Shown: positions 2,219 to 40,664 of the stretch, one piece after another
How the letters are laid out: every line of letters starts with the position of its first letter
Position numbering within the stretch: position 1 is the stretch's first letter
Origin: an uncultured Oleiphilaceae bacterium
Lineage (GTDB): Bacteria > Pseudomonadota > Gammaproteobacteria > Pseudomonadales > Oleiphilaceae
DNA length: 64,000 bases
Reading direction: 5' to 3'
Assembly: GCA_913060665.1 (NCBI GenBank)
Contig: CAJXUY010000012.1
Location: forward strand, 1 to 64,000
Notes under the pieces: model-generated
The model's database searches: none
The model's input: the letters and a program-made list of their open reading frames with translations, nothing else
What the model was told of the DNA's origin: nothing
Made by a program: the position numbers and the translations under genes

Positions 2219-4096
2219 ATGGATTTCATTACATATAAGAGTCTAGTTACCTCCCTTACTCACGGGAAGAAGTTACCTGATGCCGTTTACCTACACCAGT
2301 GTTCATTAGGTCAAGTAGATGAAATTCTTGCAGATCTTACACTCCGTATTGCTAGCGCACTTAAAATAGAAGATGGGGAGTGGAATATTGTTAAGTACTA
2401 CAAACGAGACTATAAACTTGCATTGCTAAACTACCCTACATTTTTTGATTATGCCTACCCAAGCCTCCATACAAGCTTCACAATTGATCTTGCAAAACTA
2501 TCCCTAAGAAAAGCATCGTATAAAAAATCAGATAACCCCCCAATTCTTCACAGAAAAGAAACATTTTTACCTTCAAATCATGAGGCAGTTACCTTATTTA
2601 AATCCTTTACTGAGGAAGGCGAACGCTTAGGTCTGTACGAAAATTCTCGAACTATTGGGTTTAAAAAAAATTGGGAAAGATTAATATCTAACAAAGGCTA
2701 TTTTATTGATGAAGAAGGCCATATAAAACCTAAAGCAGAGACCTCTCCAGAAGAAGTCTCGTCTCAAATAGCTGTTAATGGCGAAATTGACAGACATAAA
2801 ACGGCAATAGATCGAAACCAACTATCACAGCCGATGCAAATTTTAGCTAAACATAATTACTTTGACGGTAATTGGTCAATTCTCGACTATGGGTGTGGAA
2901 AAGGTGACGACTTAAGGGAGCTAGAAGCACACGGCCTTAATATTTCTGGCTGGGACCCTGTACATAACCCTGAAGGGGGATTATCTAACAGTGACATAGT
3001 GAATTTAGGATTTGTCTTAAATGTAATTGAAGACAGAGAAGAACGTACCGAAACTCTAAATAGGGCTTGGGAATATTCAAACAAGCTTCTCGTAGTGTCC
3101 GTCATGGTTGCTGGTGAAAGCGTAATTAGTCAATTCCAACCTTACAAAGATGGCATAGTCACCAGTAGAAACACCTTCCAGAAGTACTATTCTCAATCAG
3201 AAATACGTAGCTATATTGAAACAAGCCTCCATGAGAATGCTATTGCCGTTGGACAGGGTATCTTTTTAGTTTTTAAGGATAAGTTAGAAGAGCAGCAGTT
3301 TTTATCTGATCGACAGCATATTCGTCGAGATTGGCAACAAAAGACTAAGAGAGAAATAAAAACTCGTGAGCCTGCACTTAAGAAAGACTTTATTGATAAG
3401 CACATAGAAATATTTACTGATTTTTGGGAAACATCTTTAGAACTTGGACGAATACCCGCTAACAGTGAGTTCGAATTTTCAGAGCAATTACGCCGTATAG
3501 CAGGATCTCACATTAAAGCCCATGAAGCGCTTAAAAAACACTTTGGAGATGCATTGTTTGAAGAGGCACATAAGTCTAGAAAACAAGATCTTTTAGTCTA
3601 TTTTTCACTTGGTTTATTCGAAAAGCGTAAAACTCAAACTAAGATGCCTGATAGCCTCAAACGTGATATCAAAGCATTTTTCAGTTCATACAATGCTGCT
3701 ATAGATGAAGCTAAAGAATTATTATTTTCTGTGGGCTCTAATGAGATCATATTTGAGGCCTGTAATCAGGCTTATAAAACACTTCAATGTGGGCATATAC
3801 AAGAAGGTCATAGCTATACTTTTCACAAGAACTATTTGGGAGACCTCCCCCCCGAGTTAAGAGTTTATATCGGTTGTGCAACACAGTTATATGGAGATAT
3901 AGATGATATTCATCTTATCAAAGCACATATGCGATCAGGCAAGGTTAGCCTGATGCGCTATGATGACTGGAGTAAAGATACGCCAATGCTTGTAGAACGA
4001 ATTAAAATCAAACTACGCGACCAAGATATTGATTTTTTTGATTATGGCGAAAGGTTTGAACCTTCACCACTAATAGATAAATACAAATACATGTAG
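2219..4096 (+). CDS. DNA phosphorothioation-associated putative methyltransferase
   Basis: A 625-residue protein resembling the family named DNA phosphorothioation-associated putative methyltransferase (dnd_rel_methyl). The N-terminal stretch begins with the GKKLPDAVYLH segment I associate with this family. A Rossmann SAM-binding motif is visible near residue 222 (ILDYGCGKGDDLRELEAHG), then an acidic strand end (GWDP), followed by a long helical C-terminal region of unknown role. It converges on the phosphorothioation effector operon, which fits the family's known linkage to dnd/ssp loci. Whether it methylates DNA or another substrate is not known. The ATG at 2219 has only a weak ribosome site. 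Confidence 0.8.
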   Translation: MDFITYKSLVTSLTHGKKLPDAVYLHQCSLGQVDEILADLTLRIASALKIEDGEWNIVKYYKRDYKLALLNYPTFFDYAYPSLHTSFTIDLAKLSLRKASYKKSDNPPILHRKETFLPSNHEAVTLFKSFTEEGERLGLYENSRTIGFKKNWERLISNKGYFIDEEGHIKPKAETSPEEVSSQIAVNGEIDRHKTAIDRNQLSQPMQILAKHNYFDGNWSILDYGCGKGDDLRELEAHGLNISGWDPVHNPEGGLSNSDIVNLGFVLNVIEDREERTETLNRAWEYSNKLLVVSVMVAGESVISQFQPYKDGIVTSRNTFQKYYSQSEIRSYIETSLHENAIAVGQGIFLVFKDKLEEQQFLSDRQHIRRDWQQKTKREIKTREPALKKDFIDKHIEIFTDFWETSLELGRIPANSEFEFSEQLRRIAGSHIKAHEALKKHFGDALFEEAHKSRKQDLLVYFSLGLFEKRKTQTKMPDSLKRDIKAFFSSYNAAIDEAKELLFSVGSNEIIFEACNQAYKTLQCGHIQEGHSYTFHKNYLGDLPPELRVYIGCATQLYGDIDDIHLIKAHMRSGKVSLMRYDDWSKDTPMLVERIKIKLRDQDIDFFDYGERFEPSPLIDKYKYM

Positions 4097-4222: not shown

Positions 4223-4723
4223 TTAAAAATCTACATCAATTTCTTCAGGATTGTCAGCCTTGTTTTGTAATCTTTCATTTACAAGAACTTGTTCGAATAT
4301 TTTATTTGCTAAGGTATCTACACCAACATGATCTCCAGGGTTTTCATCCAGCCACAATTGAATTTCTTCTAAACCGGCATTGCAATACTCTTCAAAGATT
4401 GTAATTGAAGCAGGTAAGTTATCATCTTTTAAGCAAGTTCCATTTTTTTCTGTCATAAGTGCTAATAAGTAGATAAATGCATCTTTTTGATCAGTACCAT
4501 AGGTTTCTAAAATAATAGAGATTCCATCACTACCCAAAGGTTGCCTTTTACCCTTTGAATAACCGACCATCGCTGCAAATACCATTAGATATTTAATCCG
4601 TAAAAAAATAGCCTTATTTCCATCTTTATCAAAACATAACTTATCGACTAAAGGCTCATGCTTTCTATCACGCTTTACCGGTAGTTTTTTCCAAGCTTGT
4701 TTATCTATATTTTCACTAAACAT
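4223..4723 (-). CDS. DNA phosphorothioation-associated protein 4 family
   Basis: A 166-residue protein with the pattern of the dnd_assoc_4 family: an N-terminal basic segment, the FAAMVGYSKGKRQPL core near residues 49-63, then a helical stretch with IFEEYCNAGLEEIQ near residue 108. Family members occur almost only beside phosphorothioation genes; their biochemical role is unknown. It overlaps the end of the DndD-like ATPase gene by 8 bases, so the two are probably translationally coupled. It is the last gene of the effector operon. Confidence 0.7.
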   Translation of the reverse strand: MFSENIDKQAWKKLPVKRDRKHEPLVDKLCFDKDGNKAIFLRIKYLMVFAAMVGYSKGKRQPLGSDGISIILETYGTDQKDAFIYLLALMTEKNGTCLKDDNLPASITIFEEYCNAGLEEIQLWLDENPGDHVGVDTLANKIFEQVLVNERLQNKADNPEEIDVDF

Positions 4724-6749
4724 AAGAACCTACCTTTTCCAATACTGTACGATCTACAGTTTGTCCATAACGTACAGTCTCATACTCTTTATCCAAAATA
4801 TTTATTGAGTCGTGACTTTTACCCTTAGCTTCAGATGTTTCTTCTAAAACCATATTGTATTCGGCACCAACTTTCTCTCTTATATTTTGCTCAACTGTGC
4901 CTTCCCAATGACTTGAAGATAAAAGAAAAACAACCTGCTCTACAGAGTCAGGAATTGCTTTAGCTACATGTCCTTTGTATTTATTATCCAAGTCACCAAA
5001 AGGTGCATCAACAACAAATGGAGCTATCGCACCTGGTGTTAAAATCTGCCCTTGTGCATTTTTTCTTTCTCTAGATAGTTCTATTAGTGAAGAAATAAAA
5101 GTTAAACTTAATAATAATGCCTGACCATCACTCTCAGGTACGATGTCATTCTTTGTATCAACTAAACGAATATCAAAGGTGACAGGGTTTAATTTCGCGG
5201 TATAGTCTTGCCTAACAAACTGTTTTAAGTATTTATTAACTTTTTCAATTATTCTCAACTCGACATCTTTCTCAGACTTAGAAAGTGTTGACTTTAGAAC
5301 TTGCTCTACTTTTTCGGAAAAAGTCACCAAATCTTGAAACTTCTTAACTTCAGAAGAGAAAGTATCAAGTCGACTTAACTCTCCTTTTTTTAAAGTTAGA
5401 TTCCTGTCATCATTTTCAATTAACATCACAGCTCTTTCAGATGCCCTTTCATCTTGAATCAAATTATTTCTAGCTCTATTTCTCTCATTTTCGAGACCTT
5501 GGATATCTTCAAGGCTTTCAGCACCTTTAATTTGAATATTTAACTCGTCAAGATCATTCTTTAGCTTACTAATGGCAGCTTCAGAGTCCGATAGCATTTT
5601 AATATTACTAGAAAATCTACTTTTAGCCTTTATAGAATCGTTTTTAATCGAAGTTAATTGCGATCTTGCCTTACGAATTCTATTTTCTAACATAGGATCA
5701 GCAGCTTGCTTGAGCATATCTTGAATACGGCTAAAAGCTTCAGTGCCTGGATTAATATCACTACCACAAATACAAGTACTCGCCTTTAAAATATCTGTTA
5801 CCAATTGCTCATTATATGGGGCAGGGACAGTTCCTTTGTATTCCGCTTCATCAATAAAATCTAATGCTAACCCTGATAATTCAAATCCAAAAACCGTTGT
5901 AGCAAATTCTGAAACCAATGAAATTTTTTCTTTTTGTGCGTTAAATAAAAGGCTTTTCTCTCTTGCTAATTGAGATTCTGTAGACTTCCTTTGGTTATGG
6001 ATTTGTTTAATTACAGCACTGTCAGAGTTAGATAATTTGTCGTCAATTTCCTTCAACTTTTCACGATACAAATTTATAGCTTTGGCAAACTTTTGTAGGT
6101 TCTCTTGATTTCTTTCTTTGCTACTTTCAAGTGACATAATCTCATTCTGTAGCTTAGATAACTGTCCTGATTTATCTGCATTAGAAAAAGACCTCTGATA
6201 TTCTTTTTTAATCTGTTGGATGTCCCTTACAGCCATTTCTGCAATAGTAAATCCTAATATTTCTCTTACTGCTGTTTTTACAACCGAGTCACCTTTAGAA
6301 CCAGACATTTTGCCAATGCCTTCACCTTGGAAAAAAAAGTACTTTGCCATATCCTTTGGAATTACTGAATTAATAAATGAATTAGGCTTATCTACTTCTG
6401 TATATGAGTCATTTATAACTTTGAACACTCTAAAAACCTGACCATTCAGCCCAACGGCTCTTTGGACTAAAAAGACTTCTTCTTTATCGTCTTCAAATTC
6501 AATTGAAACACTATAACTTCTAGCGTTCTCTTTTTTTGCAATTTTATTGAGTAAGGCTTTCGGGTCTTTAAAGTTGTTGGTTGTTATCTCATAAAAACAC
6601 CATAGTATTGCATTTAGAAATGCTGTTTTACCTGTACCGTTCTCAGCATGGATTAATGTTATATTTTTGGTTTTACTAGTTGAAAAAATTATACTTTGTT
6701 CTCCATAAAACTGGCGAAAGTTCTTCAGCTCAACCTTTCTAAACTTCAT
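4716..6749 (-). CDS. DndD-like SMC-type ATPase of the phosphorothioation effector operon
   Basis: A 677-residue ATPase of the SbcC/Rad50/SMC type. It has a P-loop near residues 35-42 (AENGTGKT), a long coiled-coil centre from about residue 180 to 500 interrupted by a Cys-x-Cys segment near residue 325, and a C-terminal signature/Walker B/D-loop region (FVVDAPFGDLDN). The layout matches DndD and related phosphorothioation proteins. The position after the PLD-helicase gene suggests it belongs to the restriction or effector arm (SspFGH-like) and not the modification arm. The ATG at 6749 is chosen because AAGGTGG lies 5 bases before it; an upstream GTG has no such site. It overlaps both neighbours. 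Confidence 0.75.
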   Translation of the reverse strand: MKFRKVELKNFRQFYGEQSIIFSTSKTKNITLIHAENGTGKTAFLNAILWCFYEITTNNFKDPKALLNKIAKKENARSYSVSIEFEDDKEEVFLVQRAVGLNGQVFRVFKVINDSYTEVDKPNSFINSVIPKDMAKYFFFQGEGIGKMSGSKGDSVVKTAVREILGFTIAEMAVRDIQQIKKEYQRSFSNADKSGQLSKLQNEIMSLESSKERNQENLQKFAKAINLYREKLKEIDDKLSNSDSAVIKQIHNQRKSTESQLAREKSLLFNAQKEKISLVSEFATTVFGFELSGLALDFIDEAEYKGTVPAPYNEQLVTDILKASTCICGSDINPGTEAFSRIQDMLKQAADPMLENRIRKARSQLTSIKNDSIKAKSRFSSNIKMLSDSEAAISKLKNDLDELNIQIKGAESLEDIQGLENERNRARNNLIQDERASERAVMLIENDDRNLTLKKGELSRLDTFSSEVKKFQDLVTFSEKVEQVLKSTLSKSEKDVELRIIEKVNKYLKQFVRQDYTAKLNPVTFDIRLVDTKNDIVPESDGQALLLSLTFISSLIELSRERKNAQGQILTPGAIAPFVVDAPFGDLDNKYKGHVAKAIPDSVEQVVFLLSSSHWEGTVEQNIREKVGAEYNMVLEETSEAKGKSHDSINILDKEYETVRYGQTVDRTVLEKVGSYV

Positions 6750-6948
6750 TTGAACCACCTTGCTTTACAGCCCTATTTATTTCTTCTCTAATTTTCCCTA
6801 ACCTCTTCACTGAGCTTTCATCGCCATAAAAAGACTGCCGCTCGATGTTAACTAACTTCCTAGCGATTTCATGGTACTTGTCTTGAGGCTTATTTGCTTC
6901 TTTCTCAGCATCTAATAACTGTTTCTTAAATTCGTCATGTGAAGTCAT
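6739..6948 (-). CDS. Small protein wedged between effector helicase and SMC ATPase
   Basis: A 69-residue, highly charged, probably helical protein. Its start overlaps the end of the helicase gene by 14 bases and its end overlaps the SMC ATPase start, an arrangement that argues for a real, co-translated subunit. I recognise no domain. By position it would be the small middle member of an F-G-H style effector set, perhaps a bridging subunit; that is inference from gene order only. Confidence 0.6.
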   Translation of the reverse strand: MTSHDEFKKQLLDAEKEANKPQDKYHEIARKLVNIERQSFYGDESSVKRLGKIREEINRAVKQGGSNEV

Positions 6949-9082
6949 AAGTTAATCCGTGCTCCTCAATTATTTGTTCTATTTCCAATTTATTTACTGC
7001 CAATAATGCAAAATCATTGATTCTTTCAGCTTCTGATAGTTTCAATTTTTTTGAAGCAGGCCCCTCGTTTGCCGGTAAAACTACAAAATCATAGATTGTA
7101 GATAAGTGCTTGTTTTCTGACTTTCTTAAAATTCTTCCTCTGCGCTGCACATATTGCCGAGGGTTTTTGGTACTTGCCAAAATATAGGCAGTTTTACACG
7201 CAGGTACGTCAATACCTTCATCAAGTACCTTCATAGCAACTAAAGCGTCTATGGTTTTGTCTTTAAAAGCGGACATCAAAAATTTTCTTTCACTTCTTGA
7301 TACCCCTCCTGTAAATTGAGAGGTTTTCCAGCCATTTTCATTTAATACTTTAGACACTTTATCAATAACTTTTATATCTTCTTCCTCAGTATCTCCATAC
7401 GGTTTTCCTTCACCTGCATAAAAAAGTGTATGGCTTTTATTGTCATCACTAATTTTGGCTGTTAATTCTGAAAGTTTTGACAGTTTATTTTGAGCAGAAC
7501 CCAGTAAACGGCTTCGTTGTCCACAACATATTGTAAGATTCGCCCTATCTTGCTGGCTTAACCCTGAACTTTGCCGTTTAAGCATAATTTTCGTTATTTT
7601 ATGTGAAAGTTCTTCATATTTTTCCTGTTCTTCAACGGTGAGATAAATAGGAATAATATGATATTCGTATGGGGTTAATACCCCATCATGTATCGCATCA
7701 TCTAGGCCATAAGTCGCAATAACATCGCCATAATAAGAAAGTAAACGCTGTTTAGCATCATTAGGAAAAGGGGAGTCTATTTCGTCATCATCACTTCGAA
7801 AAGGGGTTGCAGATAGTCCCATTCGATAATATGCTGCAGGCAATGCAGCATTAATGTTTTTGGAGCCATGATTATGACACTCATCGCCAATAATCATTAA
7901 GGAACTACTATCAATTGAGGAAACTAAAGATTGAAAAAGTGGAGATACTAGAGTTCTATTTACTACAACTGCGGCACAAAAATCACTTACTCCAGCTTTA
8001 AAATAATTAACTTGATTTTCAAATGATTCCGCCCACGAGCTTTTAGAATCAAAACACTCATGGGCAGTTATACCAAATAATCTTAAGTTCTCTATCCACT
8101 GAATAGCTAATTCAACATAAGGTACGGCGACTATCAAGAATAGTTGCTGCTGTTTTTGCTTCTTAGCTTCAAAAATTTTCACTGCACCATAAATTGACGT
8201 GATTGTTTTTCCTGATCCAGTCGCTAGCTTTAAAATCCCTTTAAAGCTATTGCTCTTCCATGACGCCAAAGCTTCTCGTTGATGGTCATATATATTAAAT
8301 GTGTTACTTCCAATTTTAATTGGAATAAAGGGGTCTAACTTAGCGAGATTACGTTCACGTGCCTCAATCTCTTCTTCAAATTCATTTTCTACGCTAAAGG
8401 TACTACTTTTATCTTTTGCATTATTTGATATTTTTTCGTATGTTCCTGACGGTACATCTAAAGTTACCACTTCAGTCTCTTCATTTAGCCAAAGTCTATT
8501 AAACCCGTTAATAAACTCATTTCCGTAAGCTGAAAAGATTTGCTCATCCCAGCTTTTATAAACACTTATTGATTCAGCATTAAGGGTGGCGACCATACCA
8601 TGTGGAGTTTCATTAGCGGAGCCTTGAAAAACAACAACATTACCGTCCTGATCTCTAAAAATTCCAATTTTCTCGTGGTACATCCCCGCCCTTCGTAAGG
8701 CAAATTTAATTTCTAGTCTCCCGGAAGCGATTAGCCAAGAAAGTAATTCTAGTCGGGGGTGCGCATTGTCAGAATTAATTAATATTTCTTCTAGCTTAGA
8801 AGATAGGTTTAAGGTTACTTCCTTTAAAAGCAAACCATGCTTTACTGCTTCGAATTCATCATTTGAAAGAGGGTGACCTATTATTAACCTCATATCCCCA
8901 TTTGAAAGAATTAATTTACTTAAACCCTTTAAGCTCATAGCTAGAATCTCCGAAGAGAAATAACCTACAGCCCGGTCGTACGATACCGAAACTGATAGTG
9001 ATTTTTTGTAAAAATCACTATACAGATCATCTTTACCTGTACGGTAAACATTCTTTAAGTTAAGACTTTTCAGTGATGACAT
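6935..9082 (-). CDS. PLD-nuclease/SF2-helicase restriction enzyme of the phosphorothioation system
   Basis: A 715-residue protein resembling the DNA phosphorothioation system restriction enzyme family. The N-terminal part carries one phospholipase-D-type motif (YHEKIGIF near 135, GSANET near 154). An SF2 helicase follows: Walker A LATGSGKT near 285, a DECH box near 400, SATPFR, and the arginine-finger motif QRRGRILR near 645. It probably translocates on and cuts DNA lacking the phosphorothioate mark. The start at 9082 is chosen because GGGAG lies 4 bases before it; upstream ATGs at 9103 and 9148 lack a site. It is the first gene of the effector operon, separated from sspD by about 250 bases that should hold its promoter. 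Confidence 0.8.
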   Translation of the reverse strand: MSSLKSLNLKNVYRTGKDDLYSDFYKKSLSVSVSYDRAVGYFSSEILAMSLKGLSKLILSNGDMRLIIGHPLSNDEFEAVKHGLLLKEVTLNLSSKLEEILINSDNAHPRLELLSWLIASGRLEIKFALRRAGMYHEKIGIFRDQDGNVVVFQGSANETPHGMVATLNAESISVYKSWDEQIFSAYGNEFINGFNRLWLNEETEVVTLDVPSGTYEKISNNAKDKSSTFSVENEFEEEIEARERNLAKLDPFIPIKIGSNTFNIYDHQREALASWKSNSFKGILKLATGSGKTITSIYGAVKIFEAKKQKQQQLFLIVAVPYVELAIQWIENLRLFGITAHECFDSKSSWAESFENQVNYFKAGVSDFCAAVVVNRTLVSPLFQSLVSSIDSSSLMIIGDECHNHGSKNINAALPAAYYRMGLSATPFRSDDDEIDSPFPNDAKQRLLSYYGDVIATYGLDDAIHDGVLTPYEYHIIPIYLTVEEQEKYEELSHKITKIMLKRQSSGLSQQDRANLTICCGQRSRLLGSAQNKLSKLSELTAKISDDNKSHTLFYAGEGKPYGDTEEEDIKVIDKVSKVLNENGWKTSQFTGGVSRSERKFLMSAFKDKTIDALVAMKVLDEGIDVPACKTAYILASTKNPRQYVQRRGRILRKSENKHLSTIYDFVVLPANEGPASKKLKLSEAERINDFALLAVNKLEIEQIIEEHGLTYDFT

Positions 9083-9334
9083 GAAACTCCCACTAGTTGT
9101 CATATCAAGGTTCAATTTTTTACTTGATAATATTTTACTCAAAACCATCAGAGCTTTATTATCGGACAGAGTAAACACCAATAAATACACCGATAGTTTA
9201 TAAAGCTACAAAGCAGTCAACACTTAAAATTTATTAATTAAAGCAACTGCTTAAACACAAAATATAAATGTCATTTTTTATTTAATAACAACGAGTTGCA
9301 TATCAACACACCCGTTAAGAAATCTTCACTATGA

Positions 9335-10195
9335 TTAAAGTGAACAGATCAAACAAGCTTGATCTTCTGGATCATCATCATCCTGCCCCTTCAAAATATC
9401 CTGCCAACGACCACTACTATCTGATGACTTAGCGATGATTCCTTGTTCTTTTTCTCGTTTCTCTGCTTTTGCTACAAGTTCATCTAAAGAACCCTGGGAA
9501 CTCCAGGTATAGCCGTAACCACCAACATCAATAACACCATCTTTCCAATCAAATTTTTCACGAGTTCGCTGCTCAAAAGCTTTTGCCTTTTCGAACAATT
9601 CAGGGTGATTACGCTTTAAGCCAAGCCACTCATCCTGTCTTTGGAAGAAGCAAAAGTAGCAACCAGAGCGAGAGCGCCACTTGTAGTACTCTGGTATGCC
9701 TACTGTATCTTCAAGCATTCTGAATATATCTGCTCGAACAAGCCCATCTTCTATAAAAGGAAATACAGCCTTAATCGTCTCTTTTCGACTGATATAACCT
9801 TCCCGGTTCTCATCAGCTCGAATACCTACATATGAAATTACTGCATCATCACCTACAAAAGCTTCGAATGGCTTGATTTTCATTGACTGAGTACACCAGC
9901 GCTGCTTTGCTGAGGGTAAGTATTCATTATGAATTTTGAGCCATTCTTCAAATCCTTTGTCACTTCCTAAACGTAAAATAGGCTTGCCGAGGTAAGCTTC
10001 CAGCTTATCTAGAAACTCATAAATTTCTTTTAGTTCGGCTCCTGTATCTGTGAAGAAGTATTCCACTTTTTCATGTATTTCTGGGTAATGATCCTTTATA
10101 TAAATAGCTAATGCAGCACTATCTTTCCCACCGGAAATACCCACTACGTGCCTATATTTCGGGTCATTTATATGTTTCGAAAATGATTCACTCAT
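9335..10195 (-). CDS. sspD: SspD-like PAPS-reductase-family ATP pyrophosphatase
   Basis: A 286-residue protein of the PAPS reductase/N-type PP-loop family. The PP-loop SGGKDSA is at residues 21-27. Cysteines are found at W-C-T (near 103), in CYFCFF (near 179) and in CLIC at the C-terminus, consistent with metal or sulfur-transfer chemistry. It is much shorter than DndC (usually over 400 residues), which fits SspD better. It overlaps the large ATPase gene by 8 bases and so is coupled to it. In SspBCD systems this protein activates DNA for single-strand phosphorothioation with sulfur delivered by a cysteine desulfurase. No desulfurase lies nearby, so a housekeeping IscS-type enzyme probably serves. 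Confidence 0.8.
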   Translation of the reverse strand: MSESFSKHINDPKYRHVVGISGGKDSAALAIYIKDHYPEIHEKVEYFFTDTGAELKEIYEFLDKLEAYLGKPILRLGSDKGFEEWLKIHNEYLPSAKQRWCTQSMKIKPFEAFVGDDAVISYVGIRADENREGYISRKETIKAVFPFIEDGLVRADIFRMLEDTVGIPEYYKWRSRSGCYFCFFQRQDEWLGLKRNHPELFEKAKAFEQRTREKFDWKDGVIDVGGYGYTWSSQGSLDELVAKAEKREKEQGIIAKSSDSSGRWQDILKGQDDDDPEDQACLICSL

Positions 10196-13100
10196 TGGAT
10201 ACCCCCTTTAACGACTCTGAACTATTATTTGTAGGCGTTTTAGTTTCTTTGCTCTGGCGATAAGTTCTTAAAAACGAGTCAACTGTTTCTGCTAGTACGG
10301 CTAGCCTGAGCTCTTCATCAGGTAAACCTGTTAATACTTTTTCTATTGAATCTCTAACTTCACTTAGTGCGGAGCTACTTTTAGGATCTACAGCAACAAC
10401 CTCATCTAGAAACCCTTCCCCCTTCTTCACACTTCGTAAGAGATATACATCAAAATCTCCATCAATTTTGGCCGTACAGTCCTTTTCATGTAAACGAAGT
10501 TTCTCAAGATCAATAATCCTTCGGGTCAAATCATTCAAGCGGTATTCAGCCGTGTCCTGATCACTATCAAGCCATTTATCACTTGGTTTATGTCCAAGAA
10601 ACATCAAAACGTTCTTCAGCCAATCGTTGTCTGACCCAGTGTTTTTAGTAACATGCATAACGAAGGCTCTCAAGCCTTGGCTATCCACTGTATAGTTTTC
10701 AAGTCCATGACAATTTACAGAAACAATTTTTCGTAGTTCTGCTAATGAGAGCTTCATGTCGACATTGAAAGCTTGTGATAGTAACTCCTTCTGCCTATCC
10801 AGCATTGTTTGATAAGCGTTATTCAGTTCTCGTAATGACTCTTTTAATTTACCTGAAAATTCTTCACATTTATTTTCATCACCATCTAAAGCAGCTTGAT
10901 CAAAGCCTAAAGCTTTGGGTAATGCACTAAATAGGAGTTGCTCAGGAGATTTTGCTAAGTTAAATGCAGCTCTGATATCTATAGCCTGCTTTGATAATCC
11001 CCTTCGTGTTTTTTGGGTATATTGAGGCAAGCCTCCCATAAAGTTTGCTAACGGCTTTGCCAGCTGAAGCAAAGTGCGTTCTTCACTGTCACCATGAATA
11101 ACCTGAGAGTATTGTTTAAATATAGAAGCTCTCATGCCAGAAATACGGAAACGCTGAAAGCTAAACTCGTCTGGTCGCTTAACAAACTGCTCTAGCATCT
11201 CTTTAGTGAAATACGGGGCATAACGCCTCTTTTCATATAACGCTAGCTCATGCTGGTACACAATATATACAGCAACGTATAAAATTGGCAGTACACCAGC
11301 CTTTACGCCGTAAGGAGGGGCTATAAGTTCCGCATTTAGATCTGCAAAAGACTTAGCTTCTTTTTCTGTACTATCCAAAAACTTATCAATTCTGGCCCAT
11401 ACATGACGAATATTACTATGGTCATTATTCTCAAATGTCGTAGGCTGAGAAAAGCCCCAACCATTTAGCTCTTCACTTGGTTGATGCACTTTAGTTGCCA
11501 ATAGCAACGCACGATAAATAGCTTTCTCTGCCGGAAACTTTTCAATGCCTAAATCTTTCTCTTTAGCATTTTCGAGCATCGCAACCAATAATTTATTTCT
11601 TGCAGCATTTGCCTGAGCAGATGGTTTATCTCGATTTACCAACTCATTATAGATACGTGGCGACTTTGTATAAACGGACTCTAGGGCGGATGATAGAGAG
11701 TGTTGAAGCTGGCGTTTATTTCTAATAACTAATTTTTTATTAGAATGGTACCATTCACTTTCTTCCGGCCTATCCACAAGATTTTGCAATAGAGAGTCCG
11801 CAGATTGCTCAGAAGCAGTATACCGATCATCAAACTCTTTTTTAGCCACGGGGTCGGCATTCAGTTCTTGCCTATTTGAAAGAACCCGGCTTAAAGATAA
11901 GGTTTCTGACATTGCCTCCCTAAGTTGCATCCCGCTTAGACAAAGAACAACAATATCTAATTTTGAGTAATAATTAATGGCTGCTTTCTTAAAAAGCGCT
12001 TCATCATCTTGAGCAGAGGCAAGATAGAAAATAATTCTCGCTTCTTCACCTTCGGTAGGTAATGATTTGTAATTTTGCGCATCAACAAAAACAGGCACAA
12101 AGTAACGTAGTGTCCCATTTTTAATAGTGTATTTACGCGCGACAATGGGAAGCATGGACTTTGCGCTGTTTAGCTCATCTGCCAGAGAGAAATTGCCTAA
12201 ATTGTTTAGTTCCTCTTGTACTGCCGCTTCTAAATCAAAATCACTCCCCTGCCATACTCTGTATTCACCACTAAAGTGTCGATAAGTAATAACTGATTGA
12301 CTAGTAAGAGTCTCGATAGCCTTTTCAAAAAGCACTTTAGTTTTAAAGCAGGACTCCAAAATCGAGCTAGAGGCTTTAAACCCTCCTTTCCCACCGATGA
12401 TATTAAGAATACCAATGGTTTTTAGCAAATTAACCGTATCTTCATCCACATCACCCAGCCGCTCTATAGCCGTTACTACCTCTGCCCACCTGCGATGCGT
12501 AAGATAATCCCCCATAACCGCTGGCTGATTAGTAATAAAGTAATCATATATATGATGCGGTAGGACAAAATCACCTAAGCACTGCAGCTTAACTAGCATA
12601 TCGTGAAGACCAAAATCTTCATGGCTTCCTAAGTAACTAAATAAAGTTCGTTCATTTTGAGCTACCTTCTGACACAGCAATGGCAGTAAAAGAGCACTCA
12701 CTGGATGTAACGGATAGCACCCACTAAAAAGCTCTCTAGCCTCTGAATGATTTAAAGCCCCAGGCAGTGCATTCTGGCCTTCAAGAATCGTAATAATTTC
12801 ATCAGTAATTTTCGATAAAGTTATACCTTCTTTCGAATTCAGATTGTGATTAAATGCGGCAGAGACTACTCTCAGTACTTGCTCTGCAGACTCTAGAAAA
12901 GGTACCTCTTCAAAACGCCCTTGAACTTTAGACCATTCACTTTTAAGGCTTTCTCCTAGCCCTTTTGCATATTGTTCAAATGACTGATGTAAAAGCACAA
13001 ACAAAAACAAGTTTACTTTTGATCCTTTGCAGGCGTGCTCAGCTAAGGCCTGTAATAAATAGATGTCATTAGCACCGTAATGCCTGGCTTCGTACTCTAA

Positions 13101-13697
13101 GAACTTACCTAGCTCATCTATAATGAGCATAATTCCAGAACAGCCTTTTTTCTCAAGCTGCTCTTGCAAAGACTTCATCAAACTTACAATTTCTGTTGTT
13201 GATATCGCCTCTTGAGTAAGAGTGTCCTTAAGTTGAATTAGTATCTTGGGATTTTTACCCTTACTCCCTTTCCAATAGTTAGCTGCAGCATCACACATTC
13301 CTTTAACAATGCGTTTTCCTAGTGGTTCAGGTGCACCGGTTATTAAAACTTTTAAGTAACCTTCGGTTTTAGTTTCCTCTGTGAATTGCTCCCCCAAACT
13401 ATCATTTACTTTTGTAAGAATATTTCGTGCTTCACAACTTGTAGCTTCATTCGGGCCAGACAAGAGGTGCGATAAAAAAACTGAAAAGGAAGACTTCCCT
13501 GAGCCATAAGGTCCAACCAACGACCAAGCTCTAGGCGCCTGCTGTTCGTGGAATGCTTCTGATACTTTAGTAAGAGTACGAAGAGCTCTAGAAGTTGGTA
13601 TATATGCTCGAACAACCTCAATGGAGTTTGCATCACGCTCAAGGTTGATCGAGCGAGTATAGTGCGTATTAACACCAATTTTACCTATTAAACTCAT
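10188..13697 (-). CDS. sspC: SspC-like large P-loop ATPase
   Basis: An 1169-residue ATPase. Walker A is at residues 62-70 (GPYGSGKSS) and a Walker B-like run is at about 189-197 (IMLIIDELG). The rest is a very long helical region without other motifs I can name. Size and position between a DUF4007 gene and a PAPS-reductase-type gene match SspC, the ATPase of single-strand phosphorothioation. The large BrxC-type ATPases of BREX look similar, but no pglX, pglZ or brxL is present. It overlaps sspB by 4 bases and sspD by 8, so the three form one tight operon. Confidence 0.75.
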   Translation of the reverse strand: MSLIGKIGVNTHYTRSINLERDANSIEVVRAYIPTSRALRTLTKVSEAFHEQQAPRAWSLVGPYGSGKSSFSVFLSHLLSGPNEATSCEARNILTKVNDSLGEQFTEETKTEGYLKVLITGAPEPLGKRIVKGMCDAAANYWKGSKGKNPKILIQLKDTLTQEAISTTEIVSLMKSLQEQLEKKGCSGIMLIIDELGKFLEYEARHYGANDIYLLQALAEHACKGSKVNLFLFVLLHQSFEQYAKGLGESLKSEWSKVQGRFEEVPFLESAEQVLRVVSAAFNHNLNSKEGITLSKITDEIITILEGQNALPGALNHSEARELFSGCYPLHPVSALLLPLLCQKVAQNERTLFSYLGSHEDFGLHDMLVKLQCLGDFVLPHHIYDYFITNQPAVMGDYLTHRRWAEVVTAIERLGDVDEDTVNLLKTIGILNIIGGKGGFKASSSILESCFKTKVLFEKAIETLTSQSVITYRHFSGEYRVWQGSDFDLEAAVQEELNNLGNFSLADELNSAKSMLPIVARKYTIKNGTLRYFVPVFVDAQNYKSLPTEGEEARIIFYLASAQDDEALFKKAAINYYSKLDIVVLCLSGMQLREAMSETLSLSRVLSNRQELNADPVAKKEFDDRYTASEQSADSLLQNLVDRPEESEWYHSNKKLVIRNKRQLQHSLSSALESVYTKSPRIYNELVNRDKPSAQANAARNKLLVAMLENAKEKDLGIEKFPAEKAIYRALLLATKVHQPSEELNGWGFSQPTTFENNDHSNIRHVWARIDKFLDSTEKEAKSFADLNAELIAPPYGVKAGVLPILYVAVYIVYQHELALYEKRRYAPYFTKEMLEQFVKRPDEFSFQRFRISGMRASIFKQYSQVIHGDSEERTLLQLAKPLANFMGGLPQYTQKTRRGLSKQAIDIRAAFNLAKSPEQLLFSALPKALGFDQAALDGDENKCEEFSGKLKESLRELNNAYQTMLDRQKELLSQAFNVDMKLSLAELRKIVSVNCHGLENYTVDSQGLRAFVMHVTKNTGSDNDWLKNVLMFLGHKPSDKWLDSDQDTAEYRLNDLTRRIIDLEKLRLHEKDCTAKIDGDFDVYLLRSVKKGEGFLDEVVAVDPKSSSALSEVRDSIEKVLTGLPDEELRLAVLAETVDSFLRTYRQSKETKTPTNNSSESLKGVSNE

Positions 13698-14611
13698 GCT
13701 GCAACCTCCGAATTCTCAGTTGCGTAATGTTTCTGAAGCCAGGTTTCCGGCTCAATAGCTTGTATTTGGTAGAGTTGGTGTATTCCTGCAGTTTCACGGA
13801 TTTCATAACAACCTGGGTTATCATTTATCAAACACTCCAGCTTAGTTATAAGATCACTTTCCGTAAGCCTAAAGACAGAACCTGGCGCGGCATATTCATC
13901 TCTGCTATACATAAGCTCTTCAACAGGAATAGACACAACCTCTTTACTTTTCATGAGTTGTGATACAGCAAACCCAACAATAGACACAGGTAATCCAGGC
14001 CTTGCCATAGGTTTGCACTGGTAACTTTTCGCGCTACTCCCTTGATTTATCAATCGCAGCAAAGAAAGAGGTGAATCAAGTGCCTCTTCTATGGCTGCGC
14101 GAGAGTTTATCTTTACTTGGTTATACATCCGAGGAATAAGAGCTGCATCATTCTTTAATGTTGAAGGAGAAACCTTTGCCTTAGCATTTTCTTTGACCCA
14201 ATCACTCAGTGCTGTAGAAAGCTCTTGAGCAGTAAATTCTGGTTTGTGATATTTATTAAAGAACCAATACCAGGAAGTAGAAAGTTCAGCGTTAGTAGCC
14301 AACAGCCAATGCACTAACCAAATAGTAGCTTCATCCTCAAGATACGGGTCAAACCCACTTTCTTCATCAAAGATGAGATTTCCAATAGGTAGCAACCGAG
14401 TATCTGTAGCTGACATCAACTGGCAGGCGCGCAGCCAATACTGAATTGATGCCACCATATTCTTACCAACTCCAAGCGTAACAGTAGCTTCATCGTCTTT
14501 GAATATATTGGCATTCTTCTGTACAGCCTGTATACCTTTCGATAACCAGCCATAACGGAGTGCAAAGGTTTCATGACGGCCAAAAGCTGTTTTACCAGGA
14601 TTAAATTTCAT
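13694..14611 (-). CDS. sspB: SspB-like DUF4007 protein (candidate DNA-nicking subunit)
   Basis: A 305-residue DUF4007 protein beginning MKFNPGKTAFGRHETFALRYGW, the characteristic start of the family. DUF4007 proteins next to a PAPS-reductase-like gene and a large ATPase correspond to SspB, reported as the nicking component of single-strand phosphorothioation. The ATG at 14611 is preferred to the one at 14647 because it begins at the family start and follows GAGGTGA at about 9 bases. It overlaps the RHH gene by 11 bases, suggesting coupling to that regulator. No catalytic motif can be named by eye. Confidence 0.8.
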   Translation of the reverse strand: MKFNPGKTAFGRHETFALRYGWLSKGIQAVQKNANIFKDDEATVTLGVGKNMVASIQYWLRACQLMSATDTRLLPIGNLIFDEESGFDPYLEDEATIWLVHWLLATNAELSTSWYWFFNKYHKPEFTAQELSTALSDWVKENAKAKVSPSTLKNDAALIPRMYNQVKINSRAAIEEALDSPLSLLRLINQGSSAKSYQCKPMARPGLPVSIVGFAVSQLMKSKEVVSIPVEELMYSRDEYAAPGSVFRLTESDLITKLECLINDNPGCYEIRETAGIHQLYQIQAIEPETWLQKHYATENSEVAA

Positions 14612-14807
14612 CCGATGTATCACCTCTTTTAGTGGAAATTTCTCCAAATGACATCACCAACTGTCCCCTCCCCTCTAAGAACGTTTCAACATTGCCCAGA
14701 AACCAACTTTTCAAACTTTTACTTTCTTTAGACAATGCTTCATACAACTCTTGTTTAAGTTCAGGTTCAATCTCAATAACTATCCTACCGCTCTTGCCAA
14801 CACTCAT
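14601..14807 (-). CDS. Ribbon-helix-helix regulator heading the ssp operon
   Basis: A 68-residue protein with the ribbon-helix-helix pattern: a short beta strand (GRIVIEIEP), then two helices (ELKQELYEALSKESKSLKSWFLGNVETFL). It is the first gene of the sspBCD operon and overlaps sspB. A perfect 15-bp inverted repeat lies 10 to 43 bases before its start codon, the expected place for autoregulation. RHH proteins of this size are usually repressors or antitoxins; no toxin partner is beside it, so a repressor of the defence operon is the best reading. DndB plays a regulatory role in dnd loci; an RHH in this position in an ssp locus is not something I know as described. Confidence 0.75.
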   Translation of the reverse strand: MSVGKSGRIVIEIEPELKQELYEALSKESKSLKSWFLGNVETFLEGRGQLVMSFGEISTKRGDTSDEI

Positions 14808-14816
14808 AACTCATCC

Positions 14817-14850
14817 CATGTAACATAACATATAGATGTTATGTTACATG
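14817..14850. promoter_or_regulatory. Perfect 15-bp inverted repeat, probable RHH operator of the ssp operon
   Basis: Two 15-base arms (14817-14831, reading CATGTAACATAACAT, and 14836-14850) are exact reverse complements around the 4-base centre ATAG. Inside each arm TAACA and the related TAACAT repeat. It lies just before the RHH start codon on the minus strand and would overlap the promoter or leader of the sspBCD operon. Confidence 0.75.
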
Positions 14851-28066: not shown

Positions 28067-28115
28067 TAGTAACACTCTTAGTAACATCACCTTAATGTTA
28101 CTAAGAGTGTTACTA
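28067..28115. promoter_or_regulatory. 21-bp perfect inverted repeat enclosing the integrase start
   Basis: Arms at 28067-28087 and 28095-28115 are exact complements around a 7-base loop; the inner part reads CTTAGTAACAT against ATGTTACTAAG. The last base is the A of the integrase ATG, so an RNA starting upstream would fold the start region into a very stable hairpin. As DNA it is also an operator candidate for autoregulation by the integrase or a host factor. Confidence 0.75.
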
Positions 28116-40375: not shown

Positions 40376-40420
40376 AACCCGATCGAATACTTTGAAGTAT
40401 TAACTTAGTAGGCGTGAACC

Positions 40421-40456
40421 AATGCCAAATCAGAATATATATTCTGATTTGGCATT
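40421..40456. repeat. 36-bp perfect palindrome
   Basis: The stretch is identical to its own reverse complement over all 36 bases, beginning AATGCCAAATCAGAAT. It lies upstream of the riboswitch, in a gap between that transcript and the divergent secreted-protein gene. It could be an operator, a cruciform site or a bidirectional terminator. Confidence 0.8.
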
Positions 40457-40664
40457 GCAACCATAGAGCTAGAATCAAGCCCTTTCAAAACCCAACAAAT
40501 TCATCATAATGATCTAGAGAGGCACAGGGCTTCCCCTTTTTGATTGTAGCTCCATAAGGTGCCTACAAATCCAAGGGCGAATCAGTGTAAAATTAAATAT
40601 CACCTGCCCATGATGTAGCCAGAGGCCCATTTTAAATTAAAGGAATTTACCTAAAGGATTAAAC
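40457..40664. other. Intergenic sequence before the secreted repeat protein
   Basis: The remaining 208 bases hold no gene and no clear structure. They must contain the promoter of the secreted-protein gene and the start of the riboswitch transcript. Confidence 0.4.

Follow-up and report, generated by a model that had tools for sequence, protein, structure and literature searches.

A ribbon-helix-helix-type protein and its proposed ATGTWACAT operator as a probable self-adjusting throttle on varied DNA-modification operons

Described repressors of defence and modification operons

Known controllers of restriction-modification (R-M) systems mostly belong to one helix-turn-helix (HTH) family, and the R-M C proteins have an Xre-type helix-turn-helix fold. 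The BrxR/CapW regulators are larger, WYL-domain proteins. They are reported to occur with diverse defence systems (PMC9122601, PMC9122588). RptR is described as a repressor of type I R-M operons, 79 residues long, with an all-alpha four-helix fold and TAGCTA sites (PMC12255303); the text of that paper mentions neither RHH nor Ssp. For DNA phosphorothioation, DndB is described as an autorepressor of dnd operons that is said to sense ATP (PMC9239217), and SspE has been called the DndB equivalent (PMC10853773). Two ribbon-helix-helix (RHH) proteins are also described as controlling their own promoters. RelB autoregulates its operon through the operator core [A/T]TGT[A/C]A, with half-sites of 12 bp that tolerate no spacer (PMC2812701), and Omega of the epsilon-zeta system is a repressor whose affinity is set by the number and orientation of the repeats in its own promoter (PMC3874152).

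The locus compared with these systems lies in a window of 64,000 nucleotides, the whole stretch of DNA that was analysed, from an uncultured Oleiphilaceae bacterium. Its regulator belongs to a probable RHH family that resembles RelB/DinJ (E. coli RelB) in a putative N-terminal RHH unit, a weak profile match of some members and the nearest, though non-significant, structure. The RelB operator core also resembles the ATGTWA of the family. Unlike RelB/DinJ, however, the family has no adjacent RelE-type toxin gene, since the next genes are ssp genes, methyltransferases or others (sspB in the window), and its modules lie mostly 5, 9 or 14 bp apart, whereas the 12-bp half-sites of RelB are free of spacers. 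Like RptR as reported in PMC12255303, the regulator would be a small autorepressor that is encoded by the first gene, is conserved with defence operons and has several short palindromes in the promoter that it controls, but RptR is all-alpha where the present model has two helices, uses TAGCTA rather than ATGTWACAT and serves type I systems. Kinship with RptR was ruled out on fold and site. Omega differs in that it controls a toxin-antitoxin system and not DNA modification. DndB offers a phosphorothioation operon that is negatively controlled by its own product, but it is a different protein. The simplest reading is negative autoregulation by RHH dimers bound in arrays, in parallel with RelB, Omega and RptR. 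Among the matches listed, with subscription literature mostly outside the search, no paper described this family or a control of ssp by an RHH protein, and no account was found of how Ssp phosphorothioation operons are regulated.

The regulator gene and palindrome of the window

The operon of the window is encoded on the minus strand. Its first gene (14601-14807; start ATG at 14807, stop codon at 14601-14603) specifies a 68-residue RHH-type regulator, called from its open reading frame (ORF), the family alignment and weak profile matches. The next gene is sspB (DUF4007; 13694-14611, minus strand; Pfam PF13182, E 6.9e-81; PADLOC SspB). Its best start, judged from the sequence, is the ATG at 14609-14611, which gives an 11-nt overlap with the RHH ORF; a longer version with a TTG start is in the ORF list. 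The original prediction of an RHH-type first gene coupled to sspB agrees with this layout, with the RHH label itself weakly supported. With sspC (10188-13697, minus strand; PADLOC SspC, 1459 bits) and sspD (PAPS reductase-like; 9335-10195, minus strand; PADLOC SspD, E 6.4e-102), the SspBCD phosphorothioation module is present in full and in order by PADLOC models.

The ssp genes are followed on the same strand by a likely effector, a PbeA-type PLD/SF2 helicase (6935-9190; PADLOC PbeA, E 5.1e-247; TIGR04095 at 405 bits, below the cut-off of 600), by a DndD/PbeC-like ABC ATPase (4716-6758; TIGR03185, E 3e-41, under cut-off) and by DNA phosphorothioation-associated protein 4 (dnd_assoc_4; 4223-4723; TIGR04062 at 75.5 bits, cut-off 74.25). 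PbeD has been described as the cognate of DndE (PMC10853773), and dnd_assoc_4 is probably this PbeD/DndE cognate, an equation that we infer. Of a PbeABCD module, the window therefore holds a clear PbeA, the DndD-like ATPase and dnd_assoc_4, with no pbeB gene assigned. Past the end of the operon, the plus strand encodes a DNA phosphorothioation-associated putative methyltransferase (2219-4096; TIGR04096, 606 bits), and an ORF at another locus, L017:15258-17165, has by eye a similar start.

The perfect 15-bp inverted repeat that had been noticed just before the RHH gene was found again at 14817-14850. Its arms (14817-14831 and 14836-14850) are complementary at 15 of 15 positions, are separated by 4 nt and end 9 nt before the RHH ATG. 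The core on the minus strand reads ATGTAACAT-AACAT-CTAT-ATGTT-ATGTTACAT. In the proposed RHH operator, two 9-bp near-palindromes of the form ATGTWACAT, 23 bp from centre to centre, flank the inner half-sites AACAT and ATGTT. The centre of the gene-proximal module (14818-14826) is 15 nt before the ATG, and that of the gene-distal module (14841-14849) is 38 nt before it. A promoter scan returned none on the minus strand near the palindrome, and a scan by hand gave weak candidates only.

By itself the palindrome is unremarkable, given that longer perfect inverted repeats occur elsewhere in the window, with arms of 21 bp (28067-28115) and 19 bp (40420-40457). Shuffles of the 602-bp intergenic region gave perfect repeats whose arms reached 10 bp or more in 30 of 1000 cases and 12 bp or more in 5 of 1000, and for the window alone at least two ATGTWACAT copies appeared in 22 of 100 shuffles. 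The remarkable feature of the palindrome, on comparison of sequences, is its conservation. The paired-site pattern has one match in the 4.39-Mb genome of the organism, that of the window itself, and no claim is made for a regulon beyond this locus, since a reversed control also gave one match.

The protein was compared with profile and structure collections. The window protein has no significant match to any Pfam, NCBIfam, PHROG or PADLOC model. Of 44 family members, 10 matched a RelB/DinJ model with E values no higher than 0.1 and a best of 5.5e-4, the window protein not among them; models of the RelB, ParD, HicB and Arc-like kinds were matched by one or two members each, and equally weak matches to unrelated families occur too. 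An AlphaFold2 monomer of the window protein places helices at residues 15-27 and 32-47 behind an extended N-terminus, with no strand modelled (mean pLDDT 73.5; 89-93 in the block of residues 11-40; a low-confidence tail). The nearest solved structure is RelB (4fxe_B), at a non-significant E of 3.0 and Z of 4.1, and VIA-align aligned three chains, with Z 4.1 for RelB and 2.4 for 2mdv. The family profile had no meaningful match among solved structures, and Foldseek against viral models gave a best E of 0.67, with 1 of 42 rows named RHH/CopG (E 2.7). The weak profile matches, the helix pattern and the non-significant RelB structure agree on a single RHH unit and weakly suggest membership of that family. 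The alignment and the model give one unit of about 50 residues and a short tail. No DndE model was among the matches of family members, and a tandem second RHH unit is absent. Among the matches of the 44 members (E up to 0.1, with many PHROG matches nameless) no model was named Xre or HTH, and the modelled fold has two helices.

The search of the genome collection required a start of the type M[SA][IVK]G[NKS]SGR, so that the constancy of those residues in the 44-row alignment partly reflects the query. R8 and V10 are invariant in that alignment and E12 is nearly so. These three residues would presumably face DNA, by an alignment with CopG.

A shared site before varied modification genes

Among 390 genomes from the same order, 7, that of the window included, carry relatives of the window protein, at 8 places. 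A profile built from eight RHH proteins then gave 42 loci in a named genome collection and 6 in viral contigs. In the class it matched 7 of 369 genomes, again including that of the window. The loci were gathered by the RHH protein only, and upstream DNA was never a criterion. Copies dropped as identical were L045 and L079 (to L044) and L078 (to L041); L033, L038 and L055 were dropped as lying on the same contigs as L007, L008 and L011, and the weak class-search matches L072-L074 were left out. Two class-search loci, L069 and L070, were added to a set of 51 to give the 53 that were kept, which are not 53 independent events since some are near-copies. The window RHH protein had no match among plasmids, neither it nor the window SspB had one among viral contigs, and the RHH protein of L076 had none in a phage collection.

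The original prediction had named loss of the palindrome in relatives as a refutation, and the comparison did not refute it. It is the 9-bp module that persists: an exact ATGTWACAT occurs within 120 bp upstream of the RHH gene at 41 of the 53 loci, and one with at most one mismatch at 52. For the set of 51, exact modules within that distance number 39, against a shuffle mean of 0.26 and a maximum of 2 (200 sets), and at one mismatch or fewer the count is 50, against a mean of 4.5 and a maximum of 10. ATGTAACAT also came top of an unbiased 9-mer ranking of the upstream DNA. L069 and L070 have two exact modules apiece, and L048 has a site only at two mismatches. Across 50 loci there are 42 exact copies (at 38 loci). 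All of them fall in the 7.5 kb made up by the 150 bp ahead of each RHH gene, and the remaining 739 kb has no copy; composition predicts 7.5 over the same loci in all. Copies with at most one mismatch occur at 10.0 per kb upstream of RHH genes versus 0.13 per kb elsewhere. The lack of exact ATGTWACAT from the 739 kb outside RHH promoters, where simple composition would give about 7.5, may also point to avoidance.

The sites differ in arrangement. Modules are single, abutting or in tandem AACAT arrays (L031, L064), at varying distances from the ATG. In pairs that include an exact module, the centres are 5 bp apart in 26 cases, 9 bp in 13 and 14 bp in 18, with other spacings at 3 or fewer; the 5-bp class consists mostly of AACAT/ATGTT half-sites with two mismatches. 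The 23-bp spacing of the window is rare in the family (2 pairs). A change of repeat number in the AACAT pentamer arrays of L031 and L064 could tune or switch expression.

Site and protein can also be compared with loci that have sspB only. SspB (PF13182) is present in 15 of the 390 genomes and the RHH protein in 7; five genomes are common to both, with the genes adjacent each time (hypergeometric P 8e-7, or 1.5e-5 without the genome of the window). Upstream of 12 sspB genes that lack a recognisable RHH gene, an exact site was found at none and a one-mismatch site at one (L094), when 350 bp were scanned in 11 loci and 450 bp in L103. The last was used in place of L102, which holds just the 3' part of a split gene. 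L097 has no site; an apparent broken RHH tail, seen by eye, precedes its sspB, and a VapBC-like pair lies upstream.

The genes headed by the module fall into several classes: ssp at 19 of the 53 loci, DNA methyltransferases at 25, an ATPase or deaminase at 3 and no assignment at 6 (L029, L047, L056, L057, L066 and L069), which leaves nine loci without a recognised modification gene. A regulator specific to ssp was therefore ruled out, as many operons for DNA methyltransferases have this module at their head too. All 19 ssp loci have sspB, and sspC and sspD wherever the contig or stretch extends far enough. The first possible start of sspB overlaps the RHH ORF in 14 of the 16 ssp loci measured, and in L067 a truncated RHH gene lies 1.3 kb before sspB. 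L066, a truncated RHH gene near RTX-like genes, was counted outside the ssp group. By eye, methyltransferase-like and PLD-type proteins lie downstream in L069. The methyltransferases are of the N6/N4, Eco57I, D12 or C5 kinds, with 17 called by Pfam, 7 by clustering with those and L048 by tblastn; in L058 the gene begins 671 bp downstream, and L044 has a convergent RE_Alw26IDE restriction gene. At two loci (L027:8001-9371 and L061:1876-3423) an N6/N4 DNA methyltransferase carries the RHH unit as an N-terminal fusion and the module is upstream, such that these enzymes may repress themselves. The ATPase, headed at L063 and L065, is YobI-like, and the protein headed at L062 is of deaminase type.

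At L018:6855-9534, and likewise at L040, L042, L046 and L060, a convergent gene pair follows two methyltransferase genes. It encodes a 4Fe-4S-domain protein of about 335 residues and a second protein, about 560 residues long at most, which has no Pfam match in L018 and is in pieces in L042 and L046. The pair is possibly an unusual restriction partner.

Plasmid homologues before N-6 DNA methylases have the site exactly (L081, L082) or with one mismatch (L084). Three others, L083, L085 and L086, have no site at one mismatch or fewer. L085 and L086, with L105, form a more divergent RHH branch that heads plasmid DUF499-DUF3780-DUF1156 systems annotated as anti-phage, and in this branch ACGTTAC/ACGTAACGT-like (ACGTWAC-like) repeats, seen by eye, replace ATGTWACAT. 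When 2 kb of the E. coli plasmid form served as the query, 28 of 5426 E. coli genomes covered 80% of it or more, and 1300 matched at least a part. On a tree of the RHH proteins (47 columns; 9 of 41 inner branches well supported), the ssp and methyltransferase labels cluster: each takes 5 changes, where shuffled labels take 12.7 and 14.9 on average.

Probable autorepression, its alternatives and a possible link to replication

Protein and sites go together, and the comparison strongly supports the part of the original prediction that held the locus to be autoregulated through the palindrome. Such control would not be a speciality of ssp, given that methyltransferase operons have the module too. 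The best reading of the sequences is an unnamed RHH family of autorepressors, mainly on DNA-modification operons, and the RHH protein of the window is probably a dedicated autorepressor of its own operon. It would dimerise via its N-terminal strand, GRIVIEI, and the dimers would sit side by side on the ATGTWACAT modules and AACAT/ATGTT half-sites of 14817-14850. Bound dimers would block transcription of RHH-sspBCD, possibly including the pbe-like genes behind, and the overlapping start would tie the output of SspB to that of the repressor. Expression would be high without repressor and would then settle at a low steady level. Since other genes of the collected loci have no exact module before them, the target of the protein seems to be its own operon.

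A palindrome with a perfect 15-bp repeat, a 4-nt loop and a distance of 9 nt to the ATG would form a hairpin if transcribed, and it could be read as an RNA element of the 5' leader (a hairpin, terminator or attenuator) rather than as a protein site. The terminator scan, however, lists none at the palindrome, and the conserved unit is the 9-mer, in single, abutting or tandem layouts at variable distance from the ATG. Conservation of the 9-mer across several arrangements ruled out the hairpin or terminator as the main reading, and it is most improbable. The RHH protein could instead be an activator, or an activator-repressor, that times modification against restriction as C proteins do. For C proteins, binding at their own promoters and regulation of R-M genes are reported (PMC3874152, PMC6237814), and the operon of the window contains both modification and effector genes. 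This role is unlikely, as exact modules in the 50 loci are confined to the 150 bp upstream of RHH genes and convergent restriction-type genes have none, and the RHH regulators Omega and PaaR are said to be strictly repressors (PMC3874152).

Another possibility is that the protein works chiefly with the modification enzyme, as a subunit or an antitoxin-like partner after the manner of DndE or RelB, and that DNA binding is a side role. DndE is described as two RHH domains that are part of the phosphorothioation machinery (PMC10853773), 10 of 44 members match RelB/DinJ weakly, and two loci have RHH-methyltransferase fusions. Against such a partner, the protein has one RHH unit and no DndE match, the enzymes downstream are of unrelated kinds, sspB loci without an RHH gene exist and the conservation of the site calls for DNA binding, which together make it quite unlikely. 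Under autorepression, the RHH protein would throttle the methyltransferase alone where the restriction gene is convergent, and in the window it would throttle modification plus any effectors on the same transcript. Since the site of the window precedes modification and effector genes alike, this would be dosage control of co-transcribed genes and not a modification-first timer. The suggested role in setting up modification after transfer could follow from the absence of the repressor in a new cell.

The tail of the protein suggests, speculatively, a link to replication, a lead and not a result. QLVMSF (RHH codons 49-54; 14646-14663, minus strand) resembles a clamp-binding motif, and a Q-x-x-[LM]-x-[LF] or QxxL[FL]-like stretch sits 14 residues after W35 in many members. 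The relaxed pattern occurs in 28 of 55 members, 25 of the 28 at one position. Shuffles of the tails (2000), which ignore relatedness and use a pattern set after the sequences had been viewed, give it in 2.3 members on average and in 9 at most. The relaxed pattern is found in 13 of 18 ssp-linked members and 15 of 37 others. Strict QxxLF occurs in 4 of 55, and the QLVMSF of the window is an approximation to it. QxxLF and QLSLPL are described as sliding-clamp-binding motifs (PMC12309361, PMC3836487), with a consensus given as the pentapeptide QL[S/D]LF or QxxLF and a hexapeptide of the QL[SP]LPL type; QTSMAF, nearest in pattern to QLVMSF, binds the clamp very weakly (PMC12309361). The controller could read DNA replication if clamps left behind the fork titrated or remodelled the repressor via its tail, which would release the modification genes in time with new, unmodified DNA; this is improbable as it stands. 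The clamp would be an added layer, since members without the tail motif keep the operator, and a structural role for the QLVMSF-type stretch is a possible alternative. If the link is true, a portable module of RHH protein, operator and clamp would pace both phosphorothioation and methylation systems.

The protein and palindrome are probably, to judge from sequence comparison, a self-adjusting throttle on varied DNA-modification operons. A repressor family with a readable operator, common to ssp, methyltransferases and fusions, would mean that modification systems exchange a common throttle. The combination of RHH gene and ATGTWACAT is a search key for uncharacterised modification or defence operons, and the RHH-operator module offers a compact test bed for how the dose of modification may be held safe.
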